A stretch of DNA of 64,000 bases from Lentinula raphanica (taxonomy: Eukaryota; Basidiomycota; Agaricomycetes; Agaricales; Omphalotaceae), in the NCBI GenBank assembly GCA_027919835.1, contig JANVFP010000001.1, positions 496,001 through 560,000 of the forward strand, given 5' to 3'. The notes under the pieces were generated by a model. That model had not been told where the DNA came from and did not search any database. It saw only the letters and a list, made by a program, of their open reading frames with translations. How positions within the stretch are numbered: the first letter of the stretch is position 1; each line of letters begins with the position of its first letter. This document shows positions 3,321 through 60,442 of this stretch, piece by piece. The position numbers and the translations under genes are program-made.

Positions 3321-6300
3321 CTAATTTTGTGCTGAGTAGTCCTCAGGACGTTGTAAGCACCCATTCCGACCACAGGATACTGTGAAGCTTTTGTAAAAAG
3401 ACCTGATGAGTTATCCAGGAGCTTTTGAAAATAGTTGTGACGACACAGAGGGGGCTCCGGAAATGGCTCCGGGGGGTGGGCATGCCTGTCACCACCTGTC
3501 ACATCTGACCTATATTTACTGTTTTGGGTAATAAATAATTATCCAGATATTAAATAAGCGGTACATTTGTAAAAAATCCTGATAAACTATAAAAATTCAA
3601 AAAAACCCAAAAAAACCTAATTAGGTCAAATCGGGGTATGTAAACAAAATAGCCTTATATGGTAAAAAATGCTGTAGGATCTATCTAGGTGCTAAAAATA
3701 CCCAAAAAAAATCACTAAAAATGCTAAAAATATGTAGGAATGGTATATAGCCTATTGCAGATCCAGGCATCCAAAAATTACCAAAAAAGGAAATTTATGA
3801 TGATGATGTCATCTTGTAGCAAAAAATCTGAAAAAAATCCTAAAAATAGTCAAAAAATTCAGGGGTGCCTTGTTGGCCCTGAAAATGCAAAATAAAAAAA
3901 AACACGCGACAAGTGTAAAAATTTTTGTCACTCCAAATCATACCAAATCCACTATATAGTCAGTATATATAATGTATATGCTATATTTAGCATCCTAGTA
4001 CCCTCATTGGGCTAAAAATAGAACTTGATCTCATCTGGTAGCAAAAAATCTGAAAAAATCATAAAAAATACTCAAAAAATTCAGGGGTGCCTCATTGGCC
4101 CTGAAAATGCAAAATAAAAAATTTTACACGACACAATTGAAAAACAACATCATTCCAAATCTTATCAAATTTACTATATAGTTAGTATATATCATGTATA
4201 TACTATTTATAGCATCCCTAGTACCCTCAATCACTTATATCACTCAAGAATCCTACCAAACTGACAACATTGAGTAAATGTAATGTACATGGTATTTTTA
4301 GCACACCTAGTACCCTTAAAAACTCAGAACAATTTATATCACTCAATATGTTCAGTATACTTAGTACTCATCACATTTAACACACTAAAACTCAGAACAG
4401 TACTTATATGTATCATACTTAACACAGTTGGCAATGAAAATACTCAAAACAGTGTTATCAGTCACTATACTTAACACACTTAACAGTCAAAAAGTCGGAA
4501 TAATGTTACTTGATATACATAACACACTCATTGTTATACTACAACACACTTATAACAACGAGTTTTGGGCGCTTATGGGCGCTTATTTGGTATTTTTGAG
4601 TCGAAATTCTTTAATAGCACACTCAATAATTTTTGTGTGGGGTTTATACTGTGTAAGGATGTTGTTTATATCATACTACACTTGATACAATTTGGAGAAC
4701 TCAAGATTACAGCCTGTGGGGCTGGCTATATTGTGATCTTTTGTGATATAACAGTGTTTTATGTAAATGTCAATGCATACACCCATGTTATGAAGTCAAA
4801 CTGCTACTGGGTCATGGAAAGAGTCATCCTACAACCTATTCCATGCTAACTCTATGTGATACAGCCAAGAGATCTGTAATGGGGGTCATTGAATATGACA
4901 TCTATTGTTACATGTAGGTGTAGACATCTATAGTGTACATGAAACATGTACATATATATCACAGAGTCCAATAGTCATAGTGAGTATCTGAACCATGTCC
5001 AGACACTTCTAGTAGACTGTAGGAGTGATTCCCTCATGAACCACCATCAGTATACTTGCATTACATGGACATATGCATTGACATTTACATAAAACACTGT
5101 TATATTTCAAAAGATCACAATATAGCTAACCCGACAGGTTGAATTTTCGAGTTCTCTGAATTGTATCTAGAAGAATATGATATAGACAACATCCTGACAC
5201 AGTATAGAGCCCAGACAAACATTATTGAGTGTGCTATTAATGAATTTCGACTCAAAAACACCAAATAAGCGCCCATAAGCGCCCAAAACTCGTTGTTATA
5301 AGTGTGTTATAGTATAACAATGGGTGTGTTATGTATATAAAGTAACATTGTTCCGACTTTTTGACTGTTAAGTGTGTTAAGTATAGTGACTGACAACACT
5401 GTTTTAAGTATTTTCATTGTCAACTGTGTTAAGTATAATACATATAAGTACTGTTATGAGTTTTCATGTGTGAGGTTTGATGAGTGTTAAGTGTACTGAA
5501 TATATTGAGTAATATAAATTGTTCTGAGTCATCAAGGGTACTAGGTGTGTTAAAAATATCATGTACAATATATTTAATACCCCAAATCATTCAGTTTGGT
5601 ACGATTCTTGAGTGATATAAGTGATTGAGGGTACTAGGGGTGCTATAAATAGTATATACATGATATATACTGACTGTGTAGTGGATTTGGTATGATTTGG
5701 AGTGATGTTGTTTTTCAATTGTGTCGTGTAAATTTTTTTATTTTGCATTTTCAGGGCCAATAAGGCACCCCTGAATTTTTTGAGTATTTTTTATAATTTT
5801 TTCAGATTTTTTGCTATCAGATGAGATTAAGTTCTATTTTTAGCCCAATAAAGGTACTAGGATGCTAAATATAGCATATACATCATATATACTGACTGTA
5901 TAGTGGATTTGGAATGATTTGGAGTGATGAAAATTTTTACACTTGCCGCGTATTTTTTTTTATTTTGCATTTTCAGGGCCAACAAGGCACCCCTGAATTT
6001 TTTGACTATTTTTAGGATTTTTTTCATATTTTTTGCTACAAGATGACATCATCATCATAAATTTCCTTTTTTGGTAATTTTTGGATGCCTGGATCTGCAA
6101 TAGGCTATATACCATTCCTACATATTTTTAGCATTTTTAGTGATTTTTTTTTGGGTATTTTTAGCACCTAGATAGATCCTACAGCATTTTTTACCATATA
6201 AGGCTATTTTGTTTACATACCCCGATTTGACCTAATTAGGTTTTTTTGGGTTTTTTTGAATTTTTAAAGTTTATCAGGATTTTTTACAAATGTACTGCTT

Positions 6301-7186
6301 ATTTAATATCTGGATAATTATTAATTACCCAAAACAGTAAATATAGGTCAGATGTGACAGGTGGTGACAGGCATGCCCACCCCCCGGAGCCATTTCCGGA
6401 GCCCCCTCTGTGTCGTCACAACTATTTTCAAAAGCTCCTGGATAACTCATCAGGTCTTTTTACAAAAGCTTTACAGTATCAGCTGTTCCGACGTTGGCAA
6501 TAGTTGGTGAAAGGTCTCGGGCCCCATTTCTCGATATAACGGCTGTAAGAAAGACTTCGAAGACTTGTTTTCAAAAAACGGATGAATGAACTTACAGTGA
6601 TCGACGACGATCTTCACCATATCGACGTTCTTCGCGATGGCTAGGAGATTAGTTTAATATGTATGCATGAATAACGAAGTCAGAACAACTTACATCTTGC
6701 GGTATCGTTCCTCGTATACTTTTTGCTTATGTCGCTCGTCTTGAAGATCGGCAGCCCGTCGTCTAACACTTGTATTCTAGAACGACGATGCTGCTTTCAT
6801 GAATGATAACTCACTTAGCCATGCGTTCTTTGGCTTTGGCTCGCCTAGCCTCCTTATTCCTATCGAATTGAGAGAAATGATATCAAGATCATACTTATCG
6901 ATGACTTTCGGAAAGTTGCCATACCTCTCTTCATATCGTTTTCGAGCCTTCTGTTGCGGTGTGAGATCAGCTGGAGGATCAAGTTTACTGCTTTCAGAAT
7001 CTGCGCCAGAGACAGTAATCTCTGGCTTGTATTTTGCATAGTCTCTAGCAGTGAGACCCTTTCGTAGATATTCTGCTAGAGATATCTCGAATTTCGGGCG
7101 GTCTAATGTGTAACGTGGCCAGTTCGCGATGCATTATGAACACATCTGTAAGAGAAACACATACCATATTTCTTCTTATCCGACAT
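3321..7186 (-). pseudogene. Small basic hypothetical protein split by a giant palindrome
   Basis: Minus-strand gene starting at ATG 7184-7186 (MSDKKKYDRPKFEISLAEYL). Six short exons join through GT-AG introns (for example 7103-7164). They give a basic, Arg/Lys/Glu/Ala-rich, probably helical protein with segments such as KARKRYEER, NKEARRAKAKERMAK and RRRAADLQDERHKQKVYEER. The last exon reads RYIEKWGPRPFTNYCQRRN and is cut by palindrome A1 at 6485/3371. Removing the element and one copy of its TTCCGAC duplication continues the frame to a TAG at 3321-3323 (GCLQRPEDYSAQN). Such Arg-rich repeat proteins are common in mushroom genomes; the function is unknown. Only about 16 C-terminal residues are displaced, so a truncated product might still work. 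Confidence 0.55.
3371..6485. mobile_element. Giant palindromic element A1 (3,115 bp)
   Basis: The two halves are inverted copies of each other over about 1.4 kb: for example the segment around 4565-4600 is repeated in reverse complement around 5255-5290, and the 3600-4140 region reappears at 5700-6250. The left end begins CACAGGATACTG and the right end finishes CAGTATCAGCTG. The element is flanked by perfect 7-bp target duplications, TTCCGAC at 3364-3370 and 6486-6492. The centre (about 4760-5080) is not palindromic and forms a loop. Compared with copies A2 and A3 it lies in the opposite orientation, and its arms have diverged more. Short open frames in the arms are not conserved as protein. 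It is inserted in the last exon of the minus-strand gene 3321-7186. Confidence 0.9.
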
Positions 7187-7445
7187 TCTCTTGTCAATCA
7201 AGGATCGTGTACAGGCGAGATTGTAGATGGATGTAGGTGAAATTGTGGATGGATGTAACGCAGTGAAGAGCTACTTAGCGTGCACAAGTCACTTACCGCT
7301 TATGTGGCCAGTTTCCGATATCTCAGTCGAAGCTTTACTTCAATAAATATTTTTACTGTTCCTACTATTCAGCTGATTATTCATGCAGAGTGAGATATTC
7401 GAGAAGATATTCGAGAGATATTCCATTACAATATGTATATTATAT

Positions 7446-8543: not shown

Positions 8544-11500
8544 CAGCTGATACTGTAAAACTTTTGTAAAAAGTACCGATAAGTTATCGGGTACCTATTG
8601 CAAATAGTTGTGATAACCCGGAGGGGGTCCCGGAAATGGCCCCAGGGGGTGGTCATGCCTGTCACTATCTGTCACATATGGCTTATATTTACTGTTTTGG
8701 GTAATTAATAATCATCCAGATATTAAATAAGCAGTACATTTTCAAAAAAACTTGAAAATTCATAAAAATTCATAAAAAACCTAAAATGGCCTGATTAGGT
8801 CAGATCAGGATATATAAGCAAATGATGTCATATGATAAAAAATGATGTAGGGCAAATGTGGGTACTAAAAATAGCCCAAAAAATTCCTAAAAATGCAAAA
8901 AATATTTAGGGATGGTATAGAGCCTATTGCAGGTCCAGGCACATCAAAATTACCAAAAAAGGAAAAAATTGATCATGATCTTATCTTGTAGCAAAAACTC
9001 TGAAAAAAATCCTAAAAATAGTCAAAAAATTCAGGGGTGCCTTGTTGGCCCTGAAAATGCAAAATAAAAAAAAATATGCAACAAGTGTAAAAATTTTTAG
9101 AACTCCAAATCATTCCAAATCCACTATACAGTCAGTATATATGATGTATATGCTGTATTTAGCATCCTAGTACCTTTATTGGGCTAAAAATAGAACTTGA
9201 TCTCATCTGATAGTAAAAAATCTGAAAAAATCATAAAAAATACTCAAAAAATTCAGGGATGCCTCATTGGCCCTGAAAATGCAAAATAAAAAATTTACAT
9301 GATACAATTGAAAAACAACATCACTCCAAATCATACCAAATCCACTACACAGTCAGTATATATCATGTATATGCCATTTATAGCACCCCTAGTACCCTCA
9401 ATCACTTATATCACTCAAGAATCAATATATTGTACATGATATTTTAGCACACCTAGTACCTTTGATAACTTAGAACAATTTATATTACTCAATATGTTCA
9501 GTACACTTAGCACTTATCATACCTAACACACTAAAACTCATAACAGTACTTATATGTATTATACTTAACACAGTTGACAATGAAAATACTTAAAACAGTA
9601 TTATCAGTCACTATACTTAATACACTTAACAGTCAAAAAGTCGGAACAATTGTTATACCATAACACACTCATAACAACGAGTTTTGGGCGCTTATGGGCG
9701 CTTATTTGGTGTTTTTGAGTCGAAATTCATTAATAGCACACTCAATAATTTTTGTGTGGGCTCTATATTGTGTAAGGATGTTGTTTATGTCATACTACGC
9801 TTGATACAATTCGGAGAACTCAAGATTACAGCTTTTGGGACTGGCTATATTGTGATCTTTTGTGAGATAACAGTGTTTTATGTAAATGTCAATGCATACA
9901 CCCATGTTATGAAATCAAACTGCTACTGGGTCATGAGAAGAGTCATCCTACAGCCTATTCTATGCTTACTCTATGTGATACAGCCAAGAGATCTGTAATG
10001 AGGGTCATTGAATATGACATCTATTGTTACATGTAAGTGTAGACATCTATAGTGTACATGAAACATGTACATGTATATCACAAAGTCCAATAGTCATAGT
10101 GAGCATCTGAATCATGTCCAGACACTTCTAGTAGACTGTAGGAGTGTTTCCCTCATGAACCAACATCAGTATACTTGCATTACATGGACATATGCATTGA
10201 CATTTACATAAATCACTGTTAGATTTCAAAAGATCACAATATAGCCAGCCCCACAAGTTGAATTTTCAAGTTCTCTGAATTGTATCTAGACGAATATGAT
10301 ATAGACAACATCCTGACACAGTATAGAGCCCACACAAAAATTATTGAGTGTGCTATTAATGAATTTTGACTCAAAAACACCAAATAAGCGCCCATAAGCG
10401 CCCAAAACTCGTTGTTATGAGTGTGTTATGGTATAACAATTGTTCTGGCTTTTTGACTGTTAAGTGTGTTAAGTATAGTGACTGATAACACTGTTTTAAG
10501 TATTCTCTTTGTCAACTGTGTTAAGTATAATACATATAAGTACTGTTATGAGTTTTAGTGTGTTAGGTGTGATAAGTGCTAAGTGTACTGAACATATTGA
10601 GTAATATAAATTGTTCTAAGTTATCAAGGGTACTAGGTGTGCTAAAATATCATGTACAATATATTGATTCTTGAGTGATATAAGTGATTGAGGGTACTAG
10701 GGGTGCTATAAATGGCATATACATGATATATACTGACTGTGTAGTGGATTTGGTATGATTTGGAGTGATGTTGTTTTTCAATTGTATCATGTAGATTTTT
10801 TTATTTTGCATTTTCAGGGCCAATGAGGCATCCCTGAATTTTTTGAGTATTTTTTATGATTTTTTCAGATTTTTTACTATCAGATGAGATCAAGTTCTAT
10901 TTTTAGCCCAATAAAGGTACTAGGATGCTAAATATAGCATATACATCATATATACTGACTGTATAGTGGATTTGGAATGATTTGGAGTTCTAAAAATTTT
11001 TACACTTGTCGCGTATTTTTTTTTATTTTGCATTTTCAGGGCCAACAAGGCACCCCTGAATTTTTTGACTATTTTTAGGATTTTTTTCAGATTTTTTGCT
11101 ACATGATGAGATCATTATCAATTTTTTCCATATTTGGTAATTTTGATGTGCCTGGACCTGCAATAGGCTCTATACCATCCCTAAATATTTTTTGCATTTT
11201 TAGTGATTTTTTGGGCTATTTTTAGTGCCTACATTGGCCCTACATCATTTTTTATCATATGACATCATTTGCTTACATATCCTGATCTGACCTAATCAGG
11301 CCATTTTAGGTTTTTCATGAATTTTTATAAATTTTCGAGTTTTTTTGAAAATGTACTGCTTATTTAATATCTGGATGATTATTAATTACCCAAAACAGTA
11401 AATATAAGCCATACAAGCTCCTTTACCCGTGCCTACGTCACGGTAGTATATATCTTGATTCTTGACTTGCAAGTGTCAAATCACTGCATCTTTGCTGAAG

Positions 11501-13047
11501 ATTCTGTGGCTCAAGAAAGCTCAAGAGTCTACAGTTGGCATGTCCATATTGAATAGAATTCCCTTGCTTGTCAAGGGCTCTACTACCCTGCTAATTCGTT
11601 GTTTTCCGTAAACATTGGATAAACAATCTACGTCACTTCAGCGCTTCCTTCAGTGCTTCCTTCTCAAGCAAGCGCCTACCAGGCCCTACCTATCTCAACA
11701 TTCATCTTTTGGTTTCAGCCTCAACGGTCAACGCGGTCAACGTTAACGTTCAATGTAACATTCAATTTTCAACATTCAAGGAGCCTCAAGCAAGGGTTTT
11801 GCCACCAACAGGCGGCCTTTCTAGTCACCATAGTCATTGGGATTGATATCAGCTGGTGCATTATCTCCAATGTCTACTAACTCTTGCTCCTAAAATATTT
11901 CTTGAAGTATCATATGGATGTCTAAATTGTTGGTATACCCAAGAACCTCCAGCTTTTTCTGGCACTGGACGGTGTTGTACAGCCTTAAATAAACTCAGCT
12001 CATATAATTGTCACTTGTAACATTGTCATAATTTTTCAGTAGGTAGTTTTAGAAATGAAGAAACACAATATATGACATCTACACTTATTTCAAAATTTGA
12101 CAAAAGTTCAGATCCATCAATCAAATTCAGAAACTCAAGTGAATATGAGAAACCACATTCTGCTGCTTAGTTTTAGTATGTTTTACTCTATAAAATTTCT
12201 TAAACAAAGCATTGCTTGCTCAGTAAAAAAATTATTGCTTATAATTGGAGCTTATCAGCAATGTTTCAAAAACTTTTGGACTCAAACTCATACCATTATA
12301 TTTTTGAGCTTGAATTTAGAGCAGGACAATATATGTGTTGAGTTTTTGAATGGAATTTCGAGTCAAATTTGGGCTCAAGTGGCTCCTTGACTTGAAATAT
12401 TTTTGAAACGTGTGGTTAATAAGCCCTATTCTCTACCACATGAATTGTACTTTAGGTTGAACAGATTGCAGATATTTACATCAATAGTATTTCTACACAG
12501 TCTCCTTGCAAGGTCCAATTTAATCAATCTAATGTGACATGTCTAGCTTCATTGATTGAAAACTGGTACAAATCAGCTTTTGCATTGGATACATTGCTAC
12601 ACTATTGGGGTTGTTCTTATGGAGAATATCTACATAACATGTCTTCCTGATCCCCATAAAATTTTTGAATATTTTCTAAACCTTTCCTGATTTTTTCAGT
12701 ATTTTTCAGACATTTTTCAATATTTTTTGGGCCTTTACAGGCTCAAGTTGGCTGAGCTTTTGCTGAGTTGGCGCTTATCCCCATGCAAAAGAAGCGCCGA
12801 GTTGCTGACTAAATCAAAGGGAATTTTGCTGACTAAACCCAAGGAAGCGCCGGAATTGCTGACTAAAAATGACTAATATGCGGACTTTGAAAATAGATGA
12901 TTTATAGTATAGGATGTGACAGGTAGTGACAGGCATGACCACCCCCCGGGGCCATTTCCGGGACCCCCTCCGGGTTATCACAACTATTTGCAATAGGTAC
13001 CCGATAACTTATCAGTGTTTTTTACAAAAGCTTTACTGTATCCTGTG
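8544..13047. mobile_element. Giant palindromic element A2, carrying a 1.5-kb insert
   Basis: Left end CAGCTGATACTGTAAAAC, right end ...TTACTGTATCCTGTG, flanked by 7-bp duplications ACTTGGG at 8537-8543 and 13048-13054. The arms (about 8544-9890 and about 10200-11413 plus 12915-13047) are inverted copies. The loop around 9900-10190 is shared with A1 and A3. The right arm is interrupted at 11413/12915. Without the insert the element would be about 3.0 kb. It sits in exon 2 of the KDZ transposase gene; the reading frame joins cleanly (...KRSRVHLG/AGESGSTF...) when it and one ACTTGGG are removed. Confidence 0.9.
11414..12914. mobile_element. Unclassified 1.5-kb insertion in palindrome A2
   Basis: In A3 the right arm reads ...TAAGCCATATGTGACAGG without a break. 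In A2 this sequence is opened between ATA and TGTGAC, with about 1,501 bp of unrelated DNA inside. The insert starts CAAGCTCCTTTACCCG and ends near ...TTTATAGTATAGGA. No target duplication longer than 2 bp, terminal repeat or convincing ORF was found. Insertion between A and T recalls Helitrons, but the expected 5' TC and 3' CTRR ends are absent. The identity of this insert is unknown. Confidence 0.5.
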
Positions 13048-21390: not shown

Positions 21391-21529
21391 TTTCTAGGTG
21401 GCGTTTGCCAGCACTTCCTCGACTAGAACCAGGCTGGCACTTCAGGCACCCTTAAATCCTGCCGACTTAGGGGGGATTACCCATCAAATACCCGTACCTA
21501 ATGGGGGGGATTACCGGGCAATTACCCAA

Positions 21530-22040
21530 TGGGTATTACCCAGTCTGGGTAATACCCTGCCTCTAGTGCCAGGGGTCCTTGTCAGGTATTACCCAAGTTG
21601 GTAATACCTTACCAGTATATAATCATACTGCAATTGGTCAGTGCATGTAGTATGAGGCTTTTATGCATAGTCATATGCAGTATCTTAGCTCACAATTCTT
21701 TGTAAAATCAAAATACCACTTTCTATGGGTAATACCATCAATGGGTAATACCACTCACTAGGAATTTCATTGATAGGCAGAAGGCTGCCACTGAAAGATA
21801 ATACCAAGGATGGGTAATACCTTAGCTGGGTAATACCTTAGCTGGGTAATACCATTGGGTAATACCACCATTGGGTATTACCTTAGCTGGGTATTACCTT
21901 AGCTGGGTAATACCACCATTGGGTATTACCTTAACTGGGTATTACCATAGTTGGGTAATACCATTAGATGGTAATACCACCATTGGGTATTACCTTAGCT
22001 GGGTATTACCATAGTTGGGTAATACCATTAGGTGGGTAAT
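21530..22040. repeat. Subterminal GGTAATACC array, left arm of B1
   Basis: Around twenty copies of GGGTAATACC or its complement GGTATTACCC, singly or in pairs, spaced roughly 10-40 bp. The 9-mer GGTAATACC is nearly self-complementary. Its density at the element ends suggests transposase binding sites; that is an inference. Confidence 0.8.
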
Positions 22041-24479
22041 AACAGTTGATGCAATGTGCTAGAAACCACAGGTGAATTCAAAAATAGCCATAGTGAGGTA
22101 CTAGCTAGCTCAGGGACATCAAAATTACCTAAAAAGGAAATTGGTCTAAATATAAAACTTGATCTCATCAGGTAGTGAAAAATCTGAAAAAAATCATAAA
22201 AATACTCAAAAAATTCAGGGTTGCTTTGTTGGCCTTGAAAATGCAAAATAAAAAAAACATGCAACACTTTTGAAAAATGACATCACTCCAAATCATACTA
22301 AATTTACTATACATTAGGTATATATAGTGTACATGCTATTTTTAGCACATCTAGTACCCTCAGACACTCAGGAAAGCTTATATCATTCAATATATTCACT
22401 GGCAGCATACTCACTGCTTATTATACTACATGATGAAAAACCTTAGAGCAGTAGTAATGTATATCATACTCAATATACTTAATACACTCAACAATGAAAA
22501 AATATCAGAACAGTATTCATGTGTGCTATACTTGACACACTTAATACACTTTACAATGAAACAACTTGGAACAATATTATAGTAATGTATATTATACTCA
22601 ACACACTTACTACACTTAATAATAATGAAAAACCTCAGAACAGTGTTCATGTGTGTTATACTTAACATACTTCACAATGAAAAGCCTTGGACTCCAGTAT
22701 TCAGGTGTGCTATACTTACCACACTTAATACACTTTCAATAAATAACACTAGTAATATATATCATACTCAACACACTTATCACACTTAACAATGAAAAAC
22801 CTCGGAACAGTGTTCCTGTGTATTATATTTAACACACTTGAAACACTTAACAATGCAAAACCTTGGAACAGTGTTCATGTGTTTTATACTCAACACACTC
22901 AACACACTTATTAATGATAGTGAGTGTGTTGAGTATTCAGTGTGTTAACAATTATTATGCTTATTACACTCAACAGACTTCATCAGTAAGTATAAAACAC
23001 CTTCAATGGAACATTGTTATACTTTAACCCACTTATAACAACGAGTTTTGGGCGCTTATGGGCGCTTATTTGGGGTTTTTGAGTCGAAATTCATTAATAG
23101 CACACTCAACAATTTTTGTGTGGCCTTTATATTGTGTCAAAATGTTGTTCATACCATATTCGTCTAGATACAATTCAGAGAACTTGAAAATTCAACATCT
23201 GGAGGTAGCTATATTGTGATCTTTTGTGATATAACAGTGTTTTATGTAAATGTCAATGCATATGTCCATGTAATGCAAGTATACTGATGCTGGTTCATGA
23301 GGAAATCACTCCTACAGTCTACTGGCAGTGTCTGTACATGATTCAAATAGCTATCATGAAAGGTGGACTCTGTGATATACATGTACATGTTTCATGTACA
23401 CTATGGATGTCTACACTTACATGTAACAATAGATGTCATATTCTATGACCCCCATTACAGATCTCTTAGCTGTATCACATAGAGTTAGTATAGAATAGAT
23501 TGTAGGATGACTCTTTGCACCACCCAGTAACAGTTTGACTTCATAACATGGGTGTATGCATTGTCATTTGCATAAAACACCCTTAAATCATGAAAGATCA
23601 TAATATATTCAGCCCTACAGGCTATGTTTTTGAGTTCTCCAGATTGTATCTAGAGCAATATGATATAGACAACATCCTGACACAATATAGAGCCCACACA
23701 AAAATTATTGAGTGTGCTATTAATCAATTTCGACTCAAAAACACCAAATAAGCGCCCATAAGCGCCCAAAACTCGTTGTTATAAGTGGGTTAAAGTATAA
23801 CAATGTTACATTAAAGGTGTGTTATACTTACTGATGAAGTGTGTTGAGTGTAAAAGTATAATGAGTGATAACACTACTCCGAGGTTTTGATTGTTAAGTG
23901 TGTTATATTCATTGATAAAGTGTGTTGAGTATAACATGATGCAGTAACACTGTTCTGAATTTTTTAAATTGTTAAGTGTGTTAAGTATAATACACATGAG
24001 CACCAATCCGAGTTTTTTTTTCATTATTCAGTATATTGAGTCAAGTGTGTTAAGTATAACACACATGTTACTGTTACAAGGTTTTTTTTTGTTGACTGTG
24101 TTAAGTGTAATAAACATTGAGTATAGTAAATATATTGAATGATATAGGCTATCTGAGTCTTTGAGGGTGCTAGGTGTGCTAAAAGTAGCATATAGATCAT
24201 CTATATATAATGCCTGATAGTTCTGGTATGATTTGAAGTGATAAAATTTTTTACACTTGTCGCGTATTTTTTTTATTTTGAATTTTCAGGGCCAACAAAG
24301 CAACCCTGAATTTTTTGAGTATTTTTATGATTTTTTTTCAGATTTTTCACTACCTGATGAGATCAAGTTTTATTTTTTAGACCAATTTCCTTTTTAGGTA
24401 ATTTTGATGTCCCTGAGCTAGCTAGTACCTCACTATGGCTATTTTTGAATTCACCTGTGGTTTCTAGCACATTGCATGA

Positions 24480-25079
24480 ACTGTTATTACCCACCTAATG
24501 GTATTACCCAACTATGGTAATACCCAGCTAAGGTAATACCCAATGGTGGTATTACCCATCTAATGGTATTACCCAACTATGGTAATACCCAGCTAAGGTA
24601 ATACCCAATGGTGGTATTACCCAGCTAAGGTATTACCCACCTAATGGTATTACCCAACTATGGTAATACCCAGCTAAGGTATTACCCACCTAATGGTATT
24701 ACCCAACTATGGTAATACCCAGCTAAGGTAATACCCAATGGTGGTATTACCCAATGGTATTACCCAGCTAAGGTATTACCCATCCTTGGTATTATCTTTC
24801 AGTGGCAGCCTTCTGCCTATCAATGAAATTCCTAGTGAGTGGTATTACCCATTGATGGTATTACCCATAGAAAGTGGTATTTTGATTTTACAAAGAATTG
24901 TGAGCTAAGATACTGCATATGACTATGCATAAAAGCCTCATACTACATGCACTGACCAATTGCAGTATGATTATATACTGGTAAGGTATTACCAACTTGG
25001 GTAATACCTGACAAGGACCCCTGGCACTAGAGGCAGGGTATTACCCAGACTGGGTAATACCCATTGGGTAATTGCCCGG
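24480..25079. repeat. Subterminal GGTATTACC array, right arm of B1
   Basis: This is the inverted counterpart of the left array, with the same motif at similar density. It includes the same unique interruptions (for example TACTGCATATGACTATGCAT at about 24910) in reverse complement. It ends where the LTR element was inserted at 25079/25080. Confidence 0.8.
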
Positions 25080-25440
25080 TGTTGCGCGGTTTTTCCGCGC
25101 AGGCGTGCAATGATCAAAAAGATCAACTTAGACCGTTGCATAGTATCAATAAGGACTGTAGTGAGCCCGAACTAGCAGTCAAACTTGTATCAGTATAAGC
25201 TAGGATACAGATCCTTTGGCAGGATCAGCCATGAATATCCACTTAGAGCTATTGCTCGCACCCTTGGTCGGGGATCCTTCAAGAATGCTGACTACTGGTA
25301 CGAGCACACCAAGGGAATATCGACTTAGTATCAAGATCTGCCGGACCGGCACAACTGAGTTTGGTACTTGGCTGTGATGACGGAAATTTCACTTGATCTA
25401 GCAGATCAGACACGATTAGAGCCTATCCGGACGAGTTACC

Positions 25441-25625
25441 ACACGGAAACCCTACGCAAAGTAGCGGAAACCGTCGGAAACATGATGATCTAGCATTTCC
25501 GTGGCAGTACGGGTGAAACCCGCCGCGGAAACACGCATATGCTCAAGTTCTAAACTGGGATACAGCGTATGCTATGTACAGCTTTGACCAGCACTCACGG
25601 AAACGCGCGGAAACCTACGGAAAAC
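25441..25625 (+). promoter_or_regulatory. CGGAAAC motif cluster in the 5' LTR (U3)
   Basis: Within 185 bp the motif (C)GGAAAC or GGAAAA occurs about seven times (cacGGAAACcc, gcGGAAACcg, tcGGAAACat, gcGGAAACac, acGGAAACgc, gcGGAAACct, acGGAAAAca), plus one inverted TTTCCG. It lies about 1.1 kb upstream of the TATA box, where a U3 enhancer would be. The binding factor is unknown. The same cluster is in the 3' LTR. Confidence 0.5.
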
Positions 25626-26674: not shown

Positions 26675-26682
26675 TATAAATA
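26675..26682 (+). promoter_or_regulatory. TATA box of the 5' LTR
   Basis: TATAAATA in the context CACACCTCGCTATAAATACA, about 100 bp before the LTR end. The same sequence is at 45467-45474 in the 3' LTR. The position fits the U3/R boundary of an LTR promoter; it is the only clean TATA box seen in the LTR. Confidence 0.65.
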
Positions 26683-26780
26683 CAATTTGATTGACGAATC
26701 CGTGAAGTCGTACTCTGTGTTCATGCTAAGTGACCTGTCATAAGGCATTATACTAAGAACCGACTTTATACCTCGTTATC

Positions 26781-26797
26781 TGGAGCCCACCGCGAGG
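26781..26797 (+). other. Candidate primer-binding site
   Basis: Two bases after the 5' LTR the sequence reads TGGAGCCCACCGCGAGG. The TGG pairs with a tRNA 3'-CCA, as expected for tRNA-primed reverse transcription. I cannot name the tRNA by eye. Confidence 0.5.
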
Positions 26798-26884
26798 GGT
26801 GGAATCTATATTTTGGTCGAACTCGAGAGATCTTCTTGATTTCTCAAAACTACTGCCTTTGATCGAATTTATTTGATCATTAAA

Positions 26885-34455: not shown

Positions 34456-34480
34456 ACATGCCTGATCCAACAGATCAGTT

Positions 34481-37486: not shown

Positions 37487-40400
37487 TTACTTGCGGATCT
37501 TGGCAGCGCTAGAACGAACGAGGGGATCTACCTCGACAACATCAGCCTCGTCGTCCTCATCGTCTTCGTCGGTGTCGTCATATTCCGTCAATAATGCACG
37601 CCCTACTGACGCCCGAGAGGTGCCCTCGTCAATTTCCATCTCCTCGTCAACGGTGGTAGAGGCGGGGGGAGTATGAAAGGGAAGGTCTGAAGTGAAATTG
37701 CTAGGGATAGCAGCACTAGGCCGGCGACGGGAGTGAAGTACGGGTTCTTGGAAGACTGAGGTAGAAGCCACCGGAGAAGATGGAGATACGGTTGGAACGG
37801 CGGTAGGATGAGAGGAAGTCGATGGGTCGGCAGCGACCTCGATGGCTGAGGCGTTGTTGCGGAGGAACTCCTCCAGCCGGGCTGTATCGTTAGGATCGAC
37901 CAAGAAGGAGGAGAGGTTGCATGCGGAATCCCATCCAAAGAAAGTTGCGAGCCACGTCAATAAATCGTAGTCCAAGGGATGGTTGGGATTATCATTGACC
38001 CATTGAGAAAGGACCACGTTGAAGTCGAAGCCGTTCGCCCGTATCTCTTGCAGATGGTGAGATAGGCGTCGACGAACGTCGTTAAAAATGGTCTCGAAAG
38101 AAGTTGTGATGTGGCCCATCTCATCGAGCGTAGCGCGGAAACGATCTCAAGACCCGGAATAGCCTGTATAAGGATCAGCCGAGGATTAGCTGGTGATAGG
38201 AAGACTACTTACCGGTTGGATAGCCCTGGATAGTGTTGTGGATGGCTAGGAATCGGTCCTTGTGGTCCTCTAGACCCAGACTATTCGAGCAGCTACGATG
38301 GGTGCGATCGCAGTGACTACAAGCCCCAACCAGCTTGGAACCCCCGTCACAGACCACGCCCCTAGTGAGGCAGGTCAAGCAGTTGTTAGGGGAGTATAGA
38401 GCGTCAGGAGAGGGAAGCGTGGTACTGGTAGCCGACTGTAGGTGACGGGAGGCGAGGTAGTTGTATCGACTTAAACCCTGAAGAGAGAAGGAGGTGTCGG
38501 CGGAGTTGATGAAAGCGCCAAAATTCTTCATTTCGTCGGAAATCTGCCACTTCGGGGCACGGAGGAAAGGGAGTTTCGGAGCCCGGGGATTTTGGGCGAC
38601 GGTCTTGCGAATCAGCTGAGAAAATGGGGCCTTTGGTGTAAAATTTGGGTTGGTCAAAAAGTGCTGGTGACCCGAAGTTCGGGAGTCATCATCATCGAAA
38701 TAGTCTGGCTCCCCCTCTTGAATGCGTACTGGGGCGGGGGATAAGGGACGGTCGGGCTGTGACGCCGGAGTTGTGGTATCGGTCTTCGAAACAGCAGCCT
38801 GAGTGCGTCGCTTCTTAACCGGAGGCTCGGTAGAAGGCTGAAAATGAGGACAAGAAAACGGTAAGAAGGGGCAATGACAAAGACAGGTTGAGAAATAAAG
38901 GTCTGACCTGGTCCTTGCCCACCACGGAAGCAGCGCGTTGGCGTTTGGCGGGAACGGGGGCCTTGAGGAGGACTTCGGGTACCTGTGGTTTAGCCTTCGC
39001 GGCACGAGCTATGCTCCGACGTGGTGCAGGGACTGGGGAATGGGAAACCGGCGGAAAAACCTCGTCTCCGTCATCCTCCTCCTCGTCTACCTCGATAGGA
39101 GAACTGTCTACCGGGAACTTTTGAGGAGACGACCGGGCAGAACGACCATGCAGTGACGAGCCCTCGGAGCCGGTGTCTTCATCCTCGGAAGTCGTCAGGC
39201 GACGAGGGGGCTTGGTAGTTTTGGGGACGGATTTGGAAGGCGGGGGTCTGACTGGTTTTGGAGCAACGACCCGTTTTGTAGGATCGGGACGCAGAGCAAT
39301 GTTGGTGGATGGCTGACGAATCTGATCGGAATCGGTACCACGACTGGCGATGGTGACGAGGATCTGTCCCTCCCGTGTGTTCGGGTCGAAAGGAATGGGG
39401 ATCGCTAGTGTTTTGAGGGAAAAGTTCTCGTCCAAACAGGCCTAAAAGAGGGAGAGTTAGCACCAAGCAACTCTGCGATAACACGAGTGAGCCGTACCTT
39501 GACACGCTGCCGGGTTTTGGTACTCAGGCCATAGCCAGTCCGTGATTTACCGTCATATACGTGCTTCTTGTAATCAGCAGGGGAAAGATGCTCCTCGCAG
39601 AAGTCGCAGACGAGGGTAATCAAGAGAGGTGCGAATAACGGGCAGTCGATGGTGTAGTGCCAATATTCCTGGTAATAACGCTGTGACCGAAAAAGAGGGT
39701 TACACCTCCAAAACAAGCTCGGGGAACGCAGGGATACGTACCAGGCAGTCGGCGAAATTCGCCTGCTTAAGGAACTGAAGCAGACGTCGACTGTTTTCAG
39801 CCTTAGCATGGTGTCCATTGATAATCTTGGTAAAAGCCCGCTGCAGGATGACCAGGGCTTGGTATAAGTGCAGACCCTCACCGGTAGACGGTCGACCTTC
39901 CGAGAACAGGTGACACGTGCGAATGTATCGAGGAGGATAGAAGGTGGAGGGAGCCACGGACGCGACCAGGCTGTCCAAGACTTTCCGAAACTCGAGCTTC
40001 TCCGGGCTGGAATACTTAGGGAGAGAAAAGGCTGGGGAAGCCGAGTTGGGGAAACGACGAAAGTTGTTCACCAATACCGAGCATTCCTCTGCCGAAGCAG
40101 GAAGAAACAAGGCAGTCTTGTCGTCGGGAGTGTCGCCTAGGACGCGTACTGCATTGTACACCATTACCAAAGTGGTTGAATCGAAGATTTCCAGCTGATA
40201 CTGTAAAACTTTTGTAAAAAGTACCGATAAGTTATCGGGTACCTATTGCAAATAGTTGTGATAACCCGGAGGGGGTCCCGGAAATGGCCCCGGGGGGTGG
40301 TCATGCCTGTCACTACCTGTCACATATGGCTTATATTTACTGTTTTGGGTAATTAATAATCATCCAGATATTAAATAAGCAGTACATTTTCAAAAAAACC

Positions 40401-43400
40401 CGAAAATTCATAAAAATTCATAAAAAACCTAAAATGGCCTGATTAGGTCAGATCAGGATATGTAAGCAAATGACCTCATATGATCAAAAATGATGTAGGG
40501 CCAATGTAGGTACTAAAAATAGCCCAAAAAATCACTAAAAATGCAAAAAATATTTAGGGATGGTATAGAGCCTATTGCAGGCCCAGGCACATCAAAATTA
40601 CCAAAAAAGGAAAAAATTGATCATGATGTCATCTTGTAGCAAAAAATCTGAAAGAAATCCTAAAAATAGTCAAAAAATTCAGGGGTGCCTTGTTGGCCCT
40701 GAAAATGCAAAATAAAAAAAATACGCGACAAGTGTAAAAAATTTTATCACTCCAAATCATTCTAAATCCACTATACAGTCAGTATATATGATGTATATGC
40801 TATATTTAGCATCCTAGTACCTTTATTGGGCTAAAAATAGAATTTGATCTCATCTGATAGCAAAAAATCTGAAAAATTCATAAAAAATATTCAAAAAATT
40901 CAGGGGTGCCTCAGTGGCCCTGAAAATGCAAAATAAAAAAATTTACACGACACAATTGAACAACAACATCACTCCAAATCATACCAAATCCACTACCCAG
41001 GCAGTATATATCATGTATATGCCATTTATAGCACCCCTAGTACCCTCAATCACTTATATCACTCAAGAATCATACCAAACTGAATAATTTGGGGAGTAAA
41101 TATAATGTACATGATATTTTTAGCACACCTAGTACCCTTGATAACTCAGAACAATTTATATTACTCAATATGTTCAGTGCACTTAGCACTTATCACACCT
41201 AACACACTAAAACTCATAACAGTACTGATATGTATCATACTTAACACAGTTGACAATGAAAATACTCAAAACAGTGTTATCAGTCACTATACTTAACACA
41301 CTTAACAGTCAAAAAGTCGGAACAATGTTACTTAATATACATAACACACATATTGTTATACTATAACACACTCATAACAACGAGTTTTGGGCACTTATAG
41401 GCGCTTATTTGATGTTTTTAAGTCGAAATTCATTAATAGCATGCTCAATAATTTTTGTGTGGGCTCTATATTGTGTAAGGATGTTGTTTATATCATACTA
41501 CACTTGATACAATTTGGAGAACTTGAAAATACAACCTGTGGGGCTAGCTATACTATGATCTTTTGTGATATAACACTGTTTTATGTAGGTGACAGTGCAT
41601 ACACCCATGTTATGAAGTCAAACTGCTGCTGAGTCATGAAAAGAATCATCCTACAACCTATTCTATGCTAACTCTATGTGATACAGCGAAGAGATCTGTA
41701 ATGGGGGTCATTGAATATGACATCTATTGTTACATGTAAGTGTAGACATCTATAGTGTACATGAAATATGTACATGTATATCACAGAGTCCAATAGTCAT
41801 AGTGAGTATCTGAACCATGTCCAGACACTTCCATTAGACTGTAGGAGTGATCTCCTCATGAACCACCATCAGTATACTTGCATTACATGGACATATGCAT
41901 TGACATTTACATAAAACACTGTTATATCACAAAAGATCACAATATAGCCAGTCCCACAAGCTGTAATCTTGAGTTCTCCGAATTGTATCAAGTGTAGTAT
42001 GATATAAACAACATCCTTACACAATATAGAGCCCACACAAAAATTATTGAGCATGCTATTAATGAATTTCGACTTAAAAACATCAAATAAGCGCCTATAA
42101 GCGCCCAAAACTCGTTGTTATGAGTGTGTTATAGTATAACAATATGTGTGTTATGTATATTAAGTAACATTGTTCCGACTTTTTGACTGTTAAGTGTGTT
42201 AAGTATAGTGACTGATAACACTGTTTTGAGTATTTTCATTGTCAACTGTGTTAAGTATGATACATATCAGTACTGTTATGAGTTTTAGTGTGTTAGGTGT
42301 GATAAGTGCTAAGTGCACTGAACATATTGAGTAATATAAATTGTTCTGAGTTATCAAGGGTACTAGGTGTGCTAAAAATATCATGTACATTATATTTACT
42401 CCCCAAATTATTCAGTTTGGTATGATTCTTGAGTGATATAAGTGATTGAGGGTACTAGGGGTGCTATAAATGGCATATACATGATATATACTGCCTGGGT
42501 AGTGGATTTGGTATGATTTGGAGTGATGTTGTTGTTCAATTGTGTCGTGTAAATTTTTTTATTTTGCATTTTCAGGGCCACTGAGGCACCCCTGAATTTT
42601 TTGAATATTTTTTATGAATTTTTCAGATTTTTTGCTATCAGATGAGATCAAATTCTATTTTTAGCCCAATAAAGGTACTAGGATGCTAAATATAGCATAT
42701 ACATCATATATACTGACTGTATAGTGGATTTAGAATGATTTGGAGTGATAAAATTTTTTACACTTGTCGCGTATTTTTTTTTATTTTGCATTTTCAGGGC
42801 CAACAAGGCACCCCTGAATTTTTTGACTATTTTTAGGATTTCTTTCAGATTTTTTGCTACAAGATGACATCATGATCAATTTTTTCCTTTTTTGGTAATT
42901 TTGATGTGCCTGGGCCTGCAATAGGCTCTATACCATCCCTAAATATTTTTTGCATTTTTAGTGATTTTTTGGGCTATTTTTAGTACCTGCATTGGCCCTA
43001 CATCATTTTTGATCATATGAGGTCATTTGCTTACATATCCTGATCTGACCTAATCAGGCCATTTTAGGTTTTTTATGAATTTTTATGAATTTTCGGGTTT
43101 TTTTTGAAAATGTACTGCTTATTTAATATCTGGATGATTATTAATTACCCAAAACAGTAAATATAAGCCATATGTGACAGGTAGTGACAGGCATGACCAC
43201 CCCCCGGGGCCATTTGCGGAACCCCCTCCGGGTTATCACAACTATTTGCAATAGGTACCCGATAACTTATCAGTGTTTTTTACAAAAGCTTTACTGTATC
43301 CTGTGAGATTTCGAAGTCCTGCGCAACAGAAGGGGGTTCAACGGCACTGACGCCGTAGACTCGATTGCCAGAGGATTTCTTTGAGGACGAAGCCTTCGAG

Positions 43401-43411
43401 GACGACGCCAT
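37487..43411 (-). pseudogene. Antisense gene 2 of the LTR element, Zn2Cys6-like, split by palindrome A3
   Basis: Start at 43409-43411 (MASSSKASSSKKSSGNRVYG). Exon 1 is cut at 43305 and resumes at 40191; removing palindrome A3 and one AGATTTC gives VAQDFEIFDSTTLVMVYNAV. Later exons contain CDFCEEHLSPADYKKHVYDG, a long Ser/Pro/acidic linker with basic patches, and a cysteine cluster CLTCLTRGVVCDGG...CSHCDRTHRSC (about 38290-38385). The spacing C-x2-C-x6-C-x9-C-x2-C-x6-C is that of fungal Zn(II)2Cys6 DNA-binding domains, though it sits in the C-terminal half rather than at the N-terminus. An acceptor at TTGAG gives an open frame into the last exon (DRFRATLDEMGHITTSFETI). The C-terminus is acidic (DDTDEDDEDDEADVVEV), like an activation domain. 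The only lesion seen is A3. A regulator role is inferred, not shown. Confidence 0.6.
40192..43305. mobile_element. Giant palindromic element A3 (3,114 bp)
   Basis: Left end CAGCTGATACTGTAAAAC, right end TTTACTGTATCCTGTG, flanked by 7-bp duplications AGATTTC at 40185-40191 and 43306-43312. The arms (about 40192-41605 and 41890-43305) are almost identical: the short frame at 41105-41296 is repeated without an amino-acid change on the minus strand at 42199-42390. The loop is about 41605-41890. It is the least degraded copy and differs from A1 by one base in length. It is nested in the LTR element, so it moved after that element arrived. Confidence 0.92.
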
Positions 43412-43858
43412 CGTGTCGAGGACGTGGACAACGATGGGAGAGGAAAGGAAGAAACGAACTTAGAAAATTTTCCAAGTCCGTTGAACCTTTGTCAGCACTT
43501 ACTAATCCCAGGCCCAGGCATAGGGATAGTATGTAAAATGTTGAAAAGAAGTTGTTTCGAGGAAGTGTGTATGTGATGTGATAGAATTAGAAGCGTGATT
43601 TACATCATGATATCACACTCGGAAATTAAGCGCCGATAACAAACCGAGGACTTAGCGTCTTCGACAAGAGGACAGCGGAGTTGTCGGTACGGGTGCTAAG
43701 ATCAACGGATCAACTTGATCTGTTAGATCACTGGGTATAATCAAGTCGGAATGTTGCGGAAAAAGTGATTGATCTGTCGGATCAGCTACAGTACCACTCC
43801 TTTCCAGGGATACGAGCCTACACTACCCATAGCGATGACCGGGGACGGTCAGATCTTT
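43412..43858. other. 5' flank of antisense gene 2 and 3' end of the LTR element interior
   Basis: No gene seen. It probably contains the minus-strand promoter of antisense gene 2, and GATC palindromes at about 43694-43727 and 43768-43787. Confidence 0.4.
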
Positions 43859-43871
43859 AGTTTGGGGGAGA
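43859..43871 (+). other. Polypurine tract (copy 3, at the 3' LTR)
   Basis: AGTTTGGGGGAGA immediately before the 3' LTR. The position is that of the plus-strand primer for reverse transcription. Confidence 0.8.
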
Positions 43872-45570
43872 TGTTGCGCGGTTTTTCCGCGCAGGCGTGC
43901 AATGATCAAAAAGATCAACTTAGACCGTTGCATAGTATCAATAAGGACTGTAGTGAGCCCGAACTAGCAGTCAAACTTGTATCAGTATAAGCTAGGATAC
44001 AGATCCTTTGGCAGGATCAGCCATGAATATCCACTTAGAGCTATTGCTCGCACCCTTGGTCGGGGATCCTTCAAGAATGCTGACTACTGGTACGAGCACA
44101 CCAAGGGAATATCGACTTAGTATCAAGATCTGCCGGACCGGCACAACTGAGTTTGGTACTTGGCTGTGATGACGGAAATTTCACTTGATCTAGCAGATCA
44201 GACACGATTAGAGCCTATCCGGACGAGTTACCACACGGAAACCCTACGCAAAGTAGCGGAAACCGTCGGAAACATGATGATCTAGCATTTCCGTGGCAGT
44301 ACGGGTGAAACCCGCCGCGGAAACACGCATATGCTCAAGTTCTAAACTGGGATACAGCGTATGCTATGTACAGCTTTGACCAGCACTCACGGAAACGCGC
44401 GGAAACCTACGGAAAACACTTCTGAAGCATTTACCTTCGTTGTCCGCTCCAGAACACCAGGCTATATGCATACCGTTCGAAAGCTACGGACCAGACCTAC
44501 CTGATCCGCGAGATCAACCGCTGTTACGAGTCTATCTCATTAACTTGGGAAGACCACTACCATTCCGCGGAAGCAAATTCGTCGGAAACACTTGAGCAAC
44601 ACAGGCAGGAGCCACTCTGACGAGTTAGGCACCCTAGCATGTGGATGCCGCACAGACCATGGTCGGAACTTGCTTGGTCTTCTAGATCTGGCGAAAGTAC
44701 GACGAAATACGGACAAGTTTCATCTTTTTCTCTGTTTTCCTTACTATTTCCTTGCGTGTTCGTATCGTTTCAGTCATATTTTACTATTTAAGTGTATATT
44801 ATCGGACTCCATCTGTAGAAATAGCTAGATCTACTAGATCAAGGACAAATACGGGTATTGCACTTTTCGTAGTGTACTTAAAGACCGGTATCCGCACAAA
44901 TGAAACAAGTTTCGCGCCCAGATCTCTCTGAACTGGTAATCCTTTTCATCCATACGTGGGAGTAAAGGCTTCTAAGCCGTACCGGACCTTGCAGATTAAG
45001 TGTGTTACTTCATCGCGATAAGCCCGACTTTTGAGTGGTTTGACTTGGTGTCTGTCACTTGCTAGTTGAAGGTAGACTCCGTTCCGGAGATACAGAGGAC
45101 TTGGTCTCAGGTTGTGCCGAGTGAACGTGCAGAGTTTTGGTGGCTCTGTTCAAGTTGACACGTAGTGATTGGTGATCTGCGTGATCTTCGAGGTTTTACT
45201 GAGAATAGTGATCAGTACTGCTTCACCCGGGAGCGGAATCGATTGGTCTACCATAACGTCTGGTACCCCGTTGCTTTCCGAGCCTAAAAACCCTTATCCG
45301 AGTGGAAGCCACTCAAAACAAACCCCTTAGTCCAGATCTTACGACTGGTATATCCGTGTCACTTCGTTCTGCTGACCAGTATTGCTGATCTAAAAGATCT
45401 TACAAGACTGCGTTCGACTTGAGATATAAGATAGTGCGGAATCTCTGACAATGCCCCACACCTCGCTATAAATACAATTTGATTGACGAATCCGTGAAGT
45501 CGTACTCTGTGTTCGTGCTAAGTGACCTGTCATAAGGCATTATACTAAGAACCGACTTTATACCTCGTTA
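43872..45570 (+). repeat. 3' LTR
   Basis: Same length and nearly identical to the 5' LTR. Right flank CCGGTAATCCCC continues palindrome B1. TATA box copy at 45467-45474. Confidence 0.93.
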
Positions 45571-45859
45571 CCGGTAATCCCCCCCATTAGGTACGGGTAT
45601 TTGGTGGGTAATCCCCCCTAAGTCGGCAGGATTTAAGGGTGCCTGAAGTGAGGCTGGGACCCTGGTGGAGGTGCTAGAGACGACAGAGTCGCTACCTCTT
45701 GTTTAGATCCCTCCACTTCAGGCGTGTTCTGTGAATCCCTGTTTTGCTCTGGAGGGAAAATTGCTCATTCTGGGGTTGAGGGAATGGAAGAAAGAGCCGA
45801 CATTGTGGACAAAGAGCCCAGATAGATTTTGACTGCATCGATAAATGTCAGTAACTCAA

Positions 45860-46963: not shown

Positions 46964-46968
46964 GGGCA

Positions 46969-50701: not shown

Positions 50702-50711
50702 GAGGGTAAAA

Positions 50712-58438: not shown

Positions 58439-58525
58439 GAAAATATCACTTCAGGCATCCTCCAAACAGGCCTAGTTAGGATAAAAAATCATGTACCTAA
58501 ATGGGCCTAAGAGGCCCAGTAAATG

Positions 58526-58750
58526 GGTAGCCTACCCAGCCTTTATTTAGGTGGGTAGCTACCTTTGAATGGGTAGCTACCCACTTCTGAATATTTCAAG
58601 GGTAGCTACCCATCCTAAAAAATCTCAAGTGTAGCTACCCACCTTTATTAGGTAGCTACCTTTTTCCAAATATTCTATGGGTAGCTACCTACCTTGAAAT
58701 ATTTCAAGGGTAGCTACCCATATTTACTGGACAATGGGTAGCTACCCTTC
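58526..58750. repeat. GGTAGCTACC array, left arm of B2
   Basis: About ten copies of GGGTAGCTACCC, a perfect palindrome, spaced 10-30 bp; its mirror lies at 60070-60345. Same place in the element as the GGTAATACC array of B1, but a different core sequence. Confidence 0.82.
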
Positions 58751-60069
58751 TGAAATATTTCAGCATATACAGCACATTCAATATATTCAATACACATAGT
58801 AGCATCTAGCATTAAAAACTTACATCAGTAATAATATATGCTATACTAAATACACTTATCACTGTTATTATACTTATTGCACTTAACAAGAAAAGAACTT
58901 GACATTAACATATGTTATCAACATAATTAACACACTCAACTATATATCAAACAATCAAACAGTAATTTGAGAGCAGTATTATCACTTATTTTACTTATTA
59001 CAGTCAACACACTCATCAGTAATTATGATACATGTACAACAGTATTTTGGGCGCTTATGGGCGCTTATTTTGTGTTTTTTAAATCAAACTTCATTTATAT
59101 CTCATCTCATAATTTTTGTATGGACTTGATATTGTATCAGGATGTTGTTTGCACTATATTCACTCAGAAACAAATCCAAGAACAACAAAATATATTTTGT
59201 AGGGCTGGTTATATAGTGATATTCTGTAATGTCACAGTGTTTTAGGGAAATCACACTGCATATATCCATATTGTGCAGTGAGATTGATGCTATAACATGT
59301 GGAGAAATCTCCTATAGTCTACTAACAGCATCCATGTATGATCCTGATATCTATTATGAAGAGTGTACTCTGCAATATGCATCTGTATATTTTATATGCA
59401 CTAGTAATATTCACAGTTGCATGCAACTATGGATGTCATATTCAATGACCTCCAATGCAAATCTATTTGCTGGATCATATAGAGCTATCATAAGATAGAA
59501 TGTAGGATGCTTCTTCTTATTATCCAATAGCAATTTGGCTCCATTACATGAATATATGCATAGTAATTTACACAAAATACTCTTATATCACAGAATATCA
59601 CTATATAATCAGCCCTACAAAATATATTTCATTGTTCTTGGATTTGTTTCTGAGTGAATATAGTGTAAACAACATCCTGATACAATATCAAGTCCATACA
59701 AAAATTATGAGATGAGATATAAATGAAGTTTGATTTAAAAAACACAAAATAAGCGCCCATAAGCGCCCAAAATACTGTTGTACATGTATCATAATTACTG
59801 ATGAGTGTGTTGACTGTAATAAGTAAAATAAGTGATAATACTGCTCTCAAATTACTGTTTGATTGTTTGATATACAGTTGAGTGTGTTAATCATATTGAT
59901 AATATATGTTAATTTCAAGTTCTTTTCTTGTTAAGTGCAATAAGTATAATAACAGTGATAAGTGTATTTAGTATAGCACATATCATTACTGATGTAAGTT
60001 TTTAATGCTAGATGCTACTATGTGTATTGAATATATTGAATGTGTTGTATATGCTGAAATATTTCAGAG

Positions 60070-60345
60070 GGGGTAGCTACTCATTGTCCAGTAAATATGG
60101 GTAACTACCCTTCGAATATTTTAAGGTAGGTAGCTACCTATAGAATATTTGGAAAAAGGTAGCTACCTAATAAAGGTGGGTAGCTACACTTGAGATTTTT
60201 TTAGGATGAGTAGCTACCCTTGAAGTATTCAGAAGTGGGTAGCTACCCTTAAAATATTCCAAGATGGGTAGCTACCCAGTGGGAATGTGGTGATACAAGG
60301 GTAGCTACCCATTTCAAGGTAGCTACCCACCTAAATAAAGGCTGG
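60070..60345. repeat. GGTAGCTACC array, right arm of B2
   Basis: Inverted counterpart of the left array, with slightly more copies (an extra stretch at about 60268-60320 containing GGGAATGTGGTGATACAAGG). Confidence 0.8.
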
Positions 60346-60442
60346 GTAGGCTACCCATTTGCTGGGCCTCTTAGGCCCATTTAGGTACATGATTTTTTAT
60401 CCTAACTAGGCCTGTTTGGAGGGTGCCTGAAGTGGAAAATAT

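Follow-up and report, generated by a model that had tools for sequence, protein, structure and literature searches.

Kyakuja, a KDZ transposon lineage of Agaricomycetes, is characterised by 7-bp target site duplications (TSDs) and CA..TG ends (Kojima 2025, PMC12730594). Two Kyakuja families from Laccaria are described, in the accessible portion of that paper, as lacking terminal inverted repeats (TIRs) and as carrying TET/JBP genes (PMC12730594). In Cryptococcus neoformans, the elements KDZ1-KDZ3 combine KDZ with CxC1, measure 9-11 kb, and have TIRs of 139-241 bp and TSDs of 8 bp (4-8), according to the accessible part of the respective report (PMC12810828). The window analysed here, a stretch of 64,000 nucleotides from the genome of Lentinula raphanica (contig 1, 496001-560000; genome of 49.06 Mb in 75 contigs), holds five palindromic insertions, named A, B1, B2, C, and D. 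Judged from their sequence, they are very probably non-autonomous transposons of the KDZ superfamily, mobilised by the transposase of larger KDZ elements.

Palindromes and their KDZ partners

Self-alignment, a check suggested with the preliminary description of this stretch, bore out the five palindromic insertions reported there (Table 1). The arms are 90.3% identical over 3.1 kb in A, 94.6% over 3.1 kb in B2, and 92.1% over 2.7 kb in B1 (8677-11413). In C (21438-25079), identity is 83.9% in the outer 1.1 kb and 73.7% in the centre, and in D it amounts to 84.5% across the whole 1988 bp. Among the best 25 of 118 repeat pairs, within-element inverted repeats measure 335-952 nt and are 88-99% identical. 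Reading of the flanks agreed with the claimed TSDs, four of 7 bp and one of 8 bp, and with the CA..TG ends, which the TSDs abut directly in all five elements, that of C being read across its split. The TSD of D is truly 8 bp long; a 7-bp reading fails to match. No stop-to-stop open reading frame (ORF) of at least 120 aa lies wholly within any of the five elements, in keeping with the earlier view that no convincing protein is encoded, and their characterisation as non-autonomous, apparently mobile, and recent was upheld. The idea of a single family stood in part: a common core connects the five palindromes, but they have two end-types, A/B and C/D. The opinion that they could not be assigned to a named superfamily has to be revised, as their ends, duplications, and outer sequence match KDZ-transposase elements of the same genome, which are candidates for the autonomous relatives with the same ends that the earlier reader had proposed to look for.

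The partners of the C/D type were found among loci fetched between widely spaced C/D ends (the E series). E1 (14,551 bp), E2 (14,536 bp), E4 (15,989 bp), and E5 (16,710 bp) are accompanied by E3 (17,764 bp, carrying a nested A-type palindrome, E3n), the shortened E6 (8,676 bp), and E12 (23,538 bp, with nested insertions including the palindrome E12n). All seven have CACTTCAGGC ends, exact 7-bp TSDs, and matches from the genome KDZ list inside. The Pfam KDZ profile (PF18758) is matched with 5e-56 in E1 and 5e-55 in E4. In E1, a CxC1 cluster precedes KDZ (1.3e-7, above the cut-off). A second gene, facing outward, is located near the other end of E1 and E4 and is homologous between the two (38% over 143 aa). 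The outer 171 bp of C are 90-91% identical to both ends of E1, the outer 43 bp of D are 86-88% identical to E4 and 80-82% to E5, and TIR alignments span 199-445 bp in E1, E2, E4, and E5. When the first 100 of 207 end sites were compared with the KDZ list, ten CACTTCAGGC end pairs were found to enclose a KDZ match. The C/D ends are shared with elements holding a KDZ gene. When relatives of the KDZ fragment of E1 were sought, 779 of 1102 candidates reached E <= 1e-5; the best 120 include Lentinula species (64-83%) as well as Tephrocybe and Arthromyces (57-58%). Regarding the C-type copies, a 7-bp TSD is present in E9, E10, and E13, only four bases match in E7, and no TSD was found at the flanks of E8 and E11.

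No partner of the A/B type occurs among the 76 adjacent end pairs; it emerged only with nesting-aware pairing, in which a list of 307 ends, used as far as C24:675254, yielded 131 pairs. The outer CACAGG/CAGCTG pair at C20:219214-236600 (17.4 kb) contains, besides an A palindrome nested in it, a KDZ match split in two (223139-223967). Its tips are those of A, with 40/40 bp on each side, and it has its own TSD, GGAGGGC. The 1.5 kb inside its right end (47% GC) contain a 213-aa ORF and no match to A. At 9 of the 12 sites with relatives of this ORF, a KDZ match is no more than 12 kb away, and in a single comparison the ORF weakly resembled the second E4 gene (E 0.001). The layout is similar to that of E1 and E2, KDZ being situated some 4 kb inside one end and an outward-facing gene close to the opposite one. 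The A/B ends thus equal those of a KDZ-holding element, as seen in one partner read in part, and this partner would belong to another KDZ lineage than that of C/D.

A separate observation concerns three palindromes that lie between the two halves of KDZ matches (C1:623787-626897, C3:338273-341377, and C7:828881-832039), each near KDZ-profile position 100-130. Preferred insertion in the KDZ gene or its intron is possible.

Core, arms, and tips across the genome

The A/B end motif, with up to 2 mismatches, occurs at 525 genome sites (265 and 260 by strand; reversed control 0), corresponding to some 260 copies if each end has a partner. The C/D end motif is found at 65 sites (control 0), and a shorter version with 1 mismatch at 207 (control 11). 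A single A arm used as query gave 42 matches from 40 scored candidates out of 910, in which full-length and near-full-length matches are 94-100% identical. Adjacent A-type ends (92 and 95) form 76 pairs and leave 35 ends unpaired; 31 pairs measure 3.0-3.16 kb, 16 measure 2.6-2.72 kb, and 29 have other lengths. This uniformity of length and the high identity suggest that A-type palindromes spread recently.

A, B1, B2, and C have a 794-bp core in common, which is 87-95% identical without gaps among the four, while cores with gaps or an insertion are present in five further copies (E8, E11, E12n, L003, and L006). Outside the core, A and C are mostly below 62% identical per 100 columns, with 71-78% in the subterminal units; A/B and C share 222-bp subterminal units of about 80% identity in the self-alignment. 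The core contains no conserved reading frame, and a protein-coding role was ruled out by stops in all six frames of seven cores. Across 15 comparisons, the core accumulated 4 indels per 242 substitutions versus 134 per 1199 outside, a contrast that stems mainly from copies of C, in which tandem repeats inflate the outer arms. A/B comparisons alone give little contrast (186 substitutions and 3 indels in the core, 750 and 36 outside), and three selected comparisons, in which the core showed 90 substitutions but 0 indels, were judged too favourable. There is accordingly a weak hint that the core may be under length constraint.

The presence of one core under different ends suggests an exchange of ends between palindromes of the two end-types. 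Alternatively, the core could be a separate element that entered the A/B bodies and the C bodies in unrelated insertions, with no exchange of ends. The sharp drop of A-C identity at both core borders speaks for such an insertion, but it is considered unlikely, as the core is near-central in A, B, C, and D, and the subterminal units of A/B and C are alike too. Furthermore, every core in the loci examined lies inside a palindrome, although no genome-wide search for solo cores was made.

The history of the arms can be followed in nine A-type copies (A, E3n, and L002-L008; L001 is A). The arms of A differ at 59 sites in a 746-site stretch. E3n has the left-arm state in both arms throughout, L006 almost throughout, and L002 and L003 partly, and five of the nine copies retain both arm haplotypes. 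Differences between arms are reduced to 1/748 in B2, 5/748 in E12n, and 13/693 in B1. B2 and E12n are about 5.6% different from each other, although each has near-identical arms. Inter-arm gene conversion homogenises the arms. Such conversion is also described for Galileo, for which more than 99% identity within copies and about 7% divergence between copies are stated in the accessible portion of the source (PMC2775673).

The tips behave differently. Unlike tips, i.e. one CACAGG.. and one CAGCTG.., are found in 71 of the 76 adjacent A-type pairs, the other five having two CAGCTG tips, and in 97/107 nesting-aware pairs below 3.3 kb (114/131 overall). An exact 7-bp TSD flanks 13 of 15 unlike-tipped A/B copies (A, B1, B2, E3n, and nine other genomic copies) versus none of nine like-tipped ones (E12n and eight other copies; P = 4e-5), in a set that was chosen by hand, not randomly, and in which five of the nine like-tipped copies have unusual lengths and may represent mispaired ends. 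In one of the like-tipped copies, C7:995960, a further end lies between the tips. When only like-tipped copies of standard length are counted, the TSD is found in 0/4 versus 13/15 (P = 0.004). Inter-arm conversion could extend to the tip, and like-tipped copies might then have arisen in place without any rearrangement. This explanation is rather improbable, since the TSD would persist, yet it is missing from every like-tipped copy, including those of standard length. Crossover or fold-back repair is favoured for this reason. No reciprocal inversion products were recognised by eye among the like-tipped copies.

Two loci show inverted flanks. E11 (C27:38329-41990, C-type, without TSD) is flanked by inverted copies that are identical over the 100 + 1500 bp read, despite a difference of 5-28% between its own arms. 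In the like-tipped copy C16:249208-252312, also without TSD, the inverted flanks match in 60/60 and 299/300 bp. Fold-back priming from a broken palindrome could yield such flanks, and hairpin reads could as well. The apparent inverted duplication at these loci would also agree with palindromes that are formed anew each time from a half-element and not inherited. This is very unlikely for the family, as the same 59 left/right differences are common to A-type copies and C copies have the same diverged arms, mostly 93-97% alike over long alignments.

Superfamily assignment and proposed mechanism

TSDs of 7-8 bp, as expected of KDZ elements, are present in the five window palindromes, in E1-E6, E9, E10, E12, and E13, and in the 13 unlike-tipped A/B copies mentioned above. 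The same length would suit a P-superfamily foldback element of the Galileo kind, moved by a P-type transposase with 7-bp duplications. Such an origin could also account for the long, internally repetitive arms; in Galileo, too, the two arms of a copy are alike, and chimeric copies occur whose 7-bp flanks do not match, as far as described in the accessible parts of the sources (PMC3573991, PMC2775673). Still, it is highly improbable: KDZ matches lie inside the elements whose ends are identical, and no P transposase was present in the ORFs scanned, the genome not having been searched for P-type genes. P/Galileo membership is therefore not supported, and Galileo is kept as the closest behavioural analogue. 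Membership in hAT (hAT7) is equally at odds with the KDZ matches of the partners, again with no search of the genome for hAT genes. Least probable of all is an origin of the palindromes as assembly errors from hairpin or chimeric reads, which the two inverted-flank loci (1600/1600 bp and 359/360 bp) could reflect, but which is rejected for the family in view of hundreds of ends, recurring fixed lengths, arms that differ at identical sites across copies, and TSDs at unrelated flanks.

Several points weigh against the KDZ assignment. The TSD of D is 8 bp long versus 7 bp in the other four palindromes, and the unlike-tipped B copies C2:411082 and C2:419054 have no TSD. The CxC1 match of E4 (5e-4) is below the cut-off, and CxC1 was not found in the scanned piece of E5. 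Outside its nested palindrome, the element at C20:219214-236600 was read over 140 bp of its ends and 1.5 kb. It could be an A palindrome split by insertion, a reading that is disfavoured because genome searches with the A arm and the A core (40 candidates scored each) list none at its left end. Three more KDZ-holding A/B pairs are ambiguous (C7:1047309-1069729, C17:381639-405749, and C1:623787), and in the last of these the KDZ match overlaps the tip. Finally, the absence of TIRs described for Kyakuja is not shared by E1, E2, E4, and E5, with TIRs of about 200-445 bp.

In the most likely mechanism, the KDZ transposase of the ~14.5-17 kb elements would cut and paste the palindromes, with duplications of 7 bp (in one case 8 bp) as the outcome. 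The partners would be of two sorts, namely CxC1-KDZ elements with CACTTCAGGC ends for C and D, and a CACAGG../CAGCTG..-tipped KDZ element for A and B. The palindromic body has probably been passed between the two end-types, given the one core in A, B, and C. Gene conversion between arms would maintain their near-identity. In most copies the outermost bases stay asymmetric, which probably reflects a requirement of the transposase for both kinds of tip. Arm crossovers between copies or fold-back repair would yield like-tipped copies without TSD, some of them with inverted-duplicated flanks. We infer the transposition reaction, the tip requirement, the exchange of ends and its direction, and the mechanism of rearrangement from these patterns. 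A more comprehensive reading is offered tentatively, at slightly less than an even chance: one parasite body with the 794-bp core may have switched KDZ hosts by acquiring their ends, being kept palindromic by conversion that carries changes from arm to arm, and being shaped by selection for a left and a right tip, which keeps only the outermost bases asymmetric, and by palindrome-nucleated inverted duplications and orientation-swapping rearrangements, the products of which have like tips and no TSD.

Long palindromes are generally deemed unstable in eukaryotic chromosomes. This 49 Mb genome is nonetheless rich in them, as indicated by the 525 A/B ends. Since the tips are marked left and right and the arm differences are fixed, conversion, crossover, and transposition can be distinguished in each copy. 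What becomes of long palindromes in a fungus can thereby be tested directly on its genome sequence.

Further features of the window and comparison with known systems

The palindromes, their duplications, and their cores are compiled in Table 1.

Table 1. Palindromic elements of the window and associated features (window coordinates).
Feature	Position	Strand	Description
Palindrome A	3371..6485	+	3115 bp; left tip CACAGG.., right tip CAGCTG..
TSD of A	3364-3370 and 6486-6492		TTCCGAC
Core of A	4529..5322	+	794 bp
Palindrome B1	8544..13047	+	tips CAGCTG.. and CACAGG..
TSD of B1	8537-8543 and 13048-13054		ACTTGGG
Core of B1	9648..10441	+	
Interruption of B1	11414-12914		~1.5 kb
Palindrome C, main part	21438..25079	+	CACTTCAGGC end
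TSD of C	21431-21437 and 45651-45657		AGGCTGG
Core of C	23012..23805	-	opposite orientation to A; 90% identity with core of A
Long terminal repeat (LTR) element nested in C	25080..45570	.	contains B2
Palindrome B2	40192..43305	+	3114 bp; within LTR element
TSD of B2	40185-40191 and 43306-43312		AGATTTC
Core of B2	41351..42144	+	
Palindrome C, final part	45571..45650	+	80 bp past the nested LTR element
Palindrome D	58447..60434	+	1988 bp; CACTTCAGGC ends
TSD of D	58439-58446 and 60435-60442		GAAAATAT, 8 bp
Core-like centre of D	59045..59772	-	72% identical to core of A, 8 gap positions

The LTR element that splits C is flanked by CCGG and has terminal repeats of 1.7 kb (25080-26778 and 43872-45570), which are 99.6% identical in the self-alignment. 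An inverted, partial copy of LTR ends (about 700 bp, 92% identical to 26122-26778 and 44914-45573) is located at 63297-63999 and runs off the window. Between B1 and C, the window encodes a KDZ transposase (14210-17268, 2e-40) and a Tet_JBP dioxygenase domain (19328-19999, 2.5e-11). Identity between this KDZ and the one in E1 is only about 30%. No convincing TIRs were found for the KDZ/Tet_JBP region, and the ends of the element were not set because related copies reach both flanking palindromes. A sequence of about 224 bp (15671-15894) is inserted in the KDZ gene. It recurs elsewhere in more than 20 copies of 97-100% identity, one of which breaks the core of E8, and it resembles a short miniature inverted-repeat transposable element (MITE). 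On the minus strand, 51341-54411 contains long ORFs that by eye resemble a DIRS-like reverse transcriptase and a tyrosine recombinase; a Pfam scan of two ORFs gave no match. Furthermore, a 150-bp direct repeat (50708-50857 and 57138-57287) is 97% identical.

MITEs are short non-coding elements with TIRs, usually below about 0.8 kb. The window palindromes are likewise non-coding, built of inverted repeats, and present in many copies, but at 2.0-4.5 kb they are far above the usual MITE size, and MITE membership is not supported. The literature searched, mostly open-access papers, yielded no account of palindromes of this kind, which agrees with the earlier suggestion of a possibly undescribed group. 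The KDZ elements in the accessible portions of PMC12730594 and PMC12810828 are carriers of transposase genes; with the palindromes, KDZ transposons would also comprise a large class of non-autonomous members.

With Kyakuja, as far as the accessible part of its description extends, the palindromes and their partners share the 7-bp TSD, the CA..TG termini, and a KDZ transposase in the partner. They differ in that the partners have TIRs, the palindromes are non-coding, and no Tet_JBP match was found in the partner ORFs scanned, which are part of all ORFs. The Kyakuja lineage therefore seems to fit by TSD and termini and not by TIRs, a comparison of features and not a tree placement. KDZ1-KDZ3 resemble the partners in the combination of KDZ and CxC1 transposase, TIRs, and TSDs; the TSD is mostly 7 bp here, and palindromic non-autonomous relatives are not described in the accessible part of that report (PMC12810828). 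Galileo from Drosophila, judged from the accessible parts of the sources, shares the 7-bp TSD, the very long near-identical arms, TSD-mismatched chimeras, and rearrangements (PMC3573991, PMC2775673). It has another transposase, whereas the elements described here are fungal, palindromic nearly throughout, and marked left and right at their tips. Thus, as far as can be read from the sequence, the family is of the Galileo foldback type in its behaviour, and by its ends, duplications, and partner genes it is a non-autonomous KDZ group.

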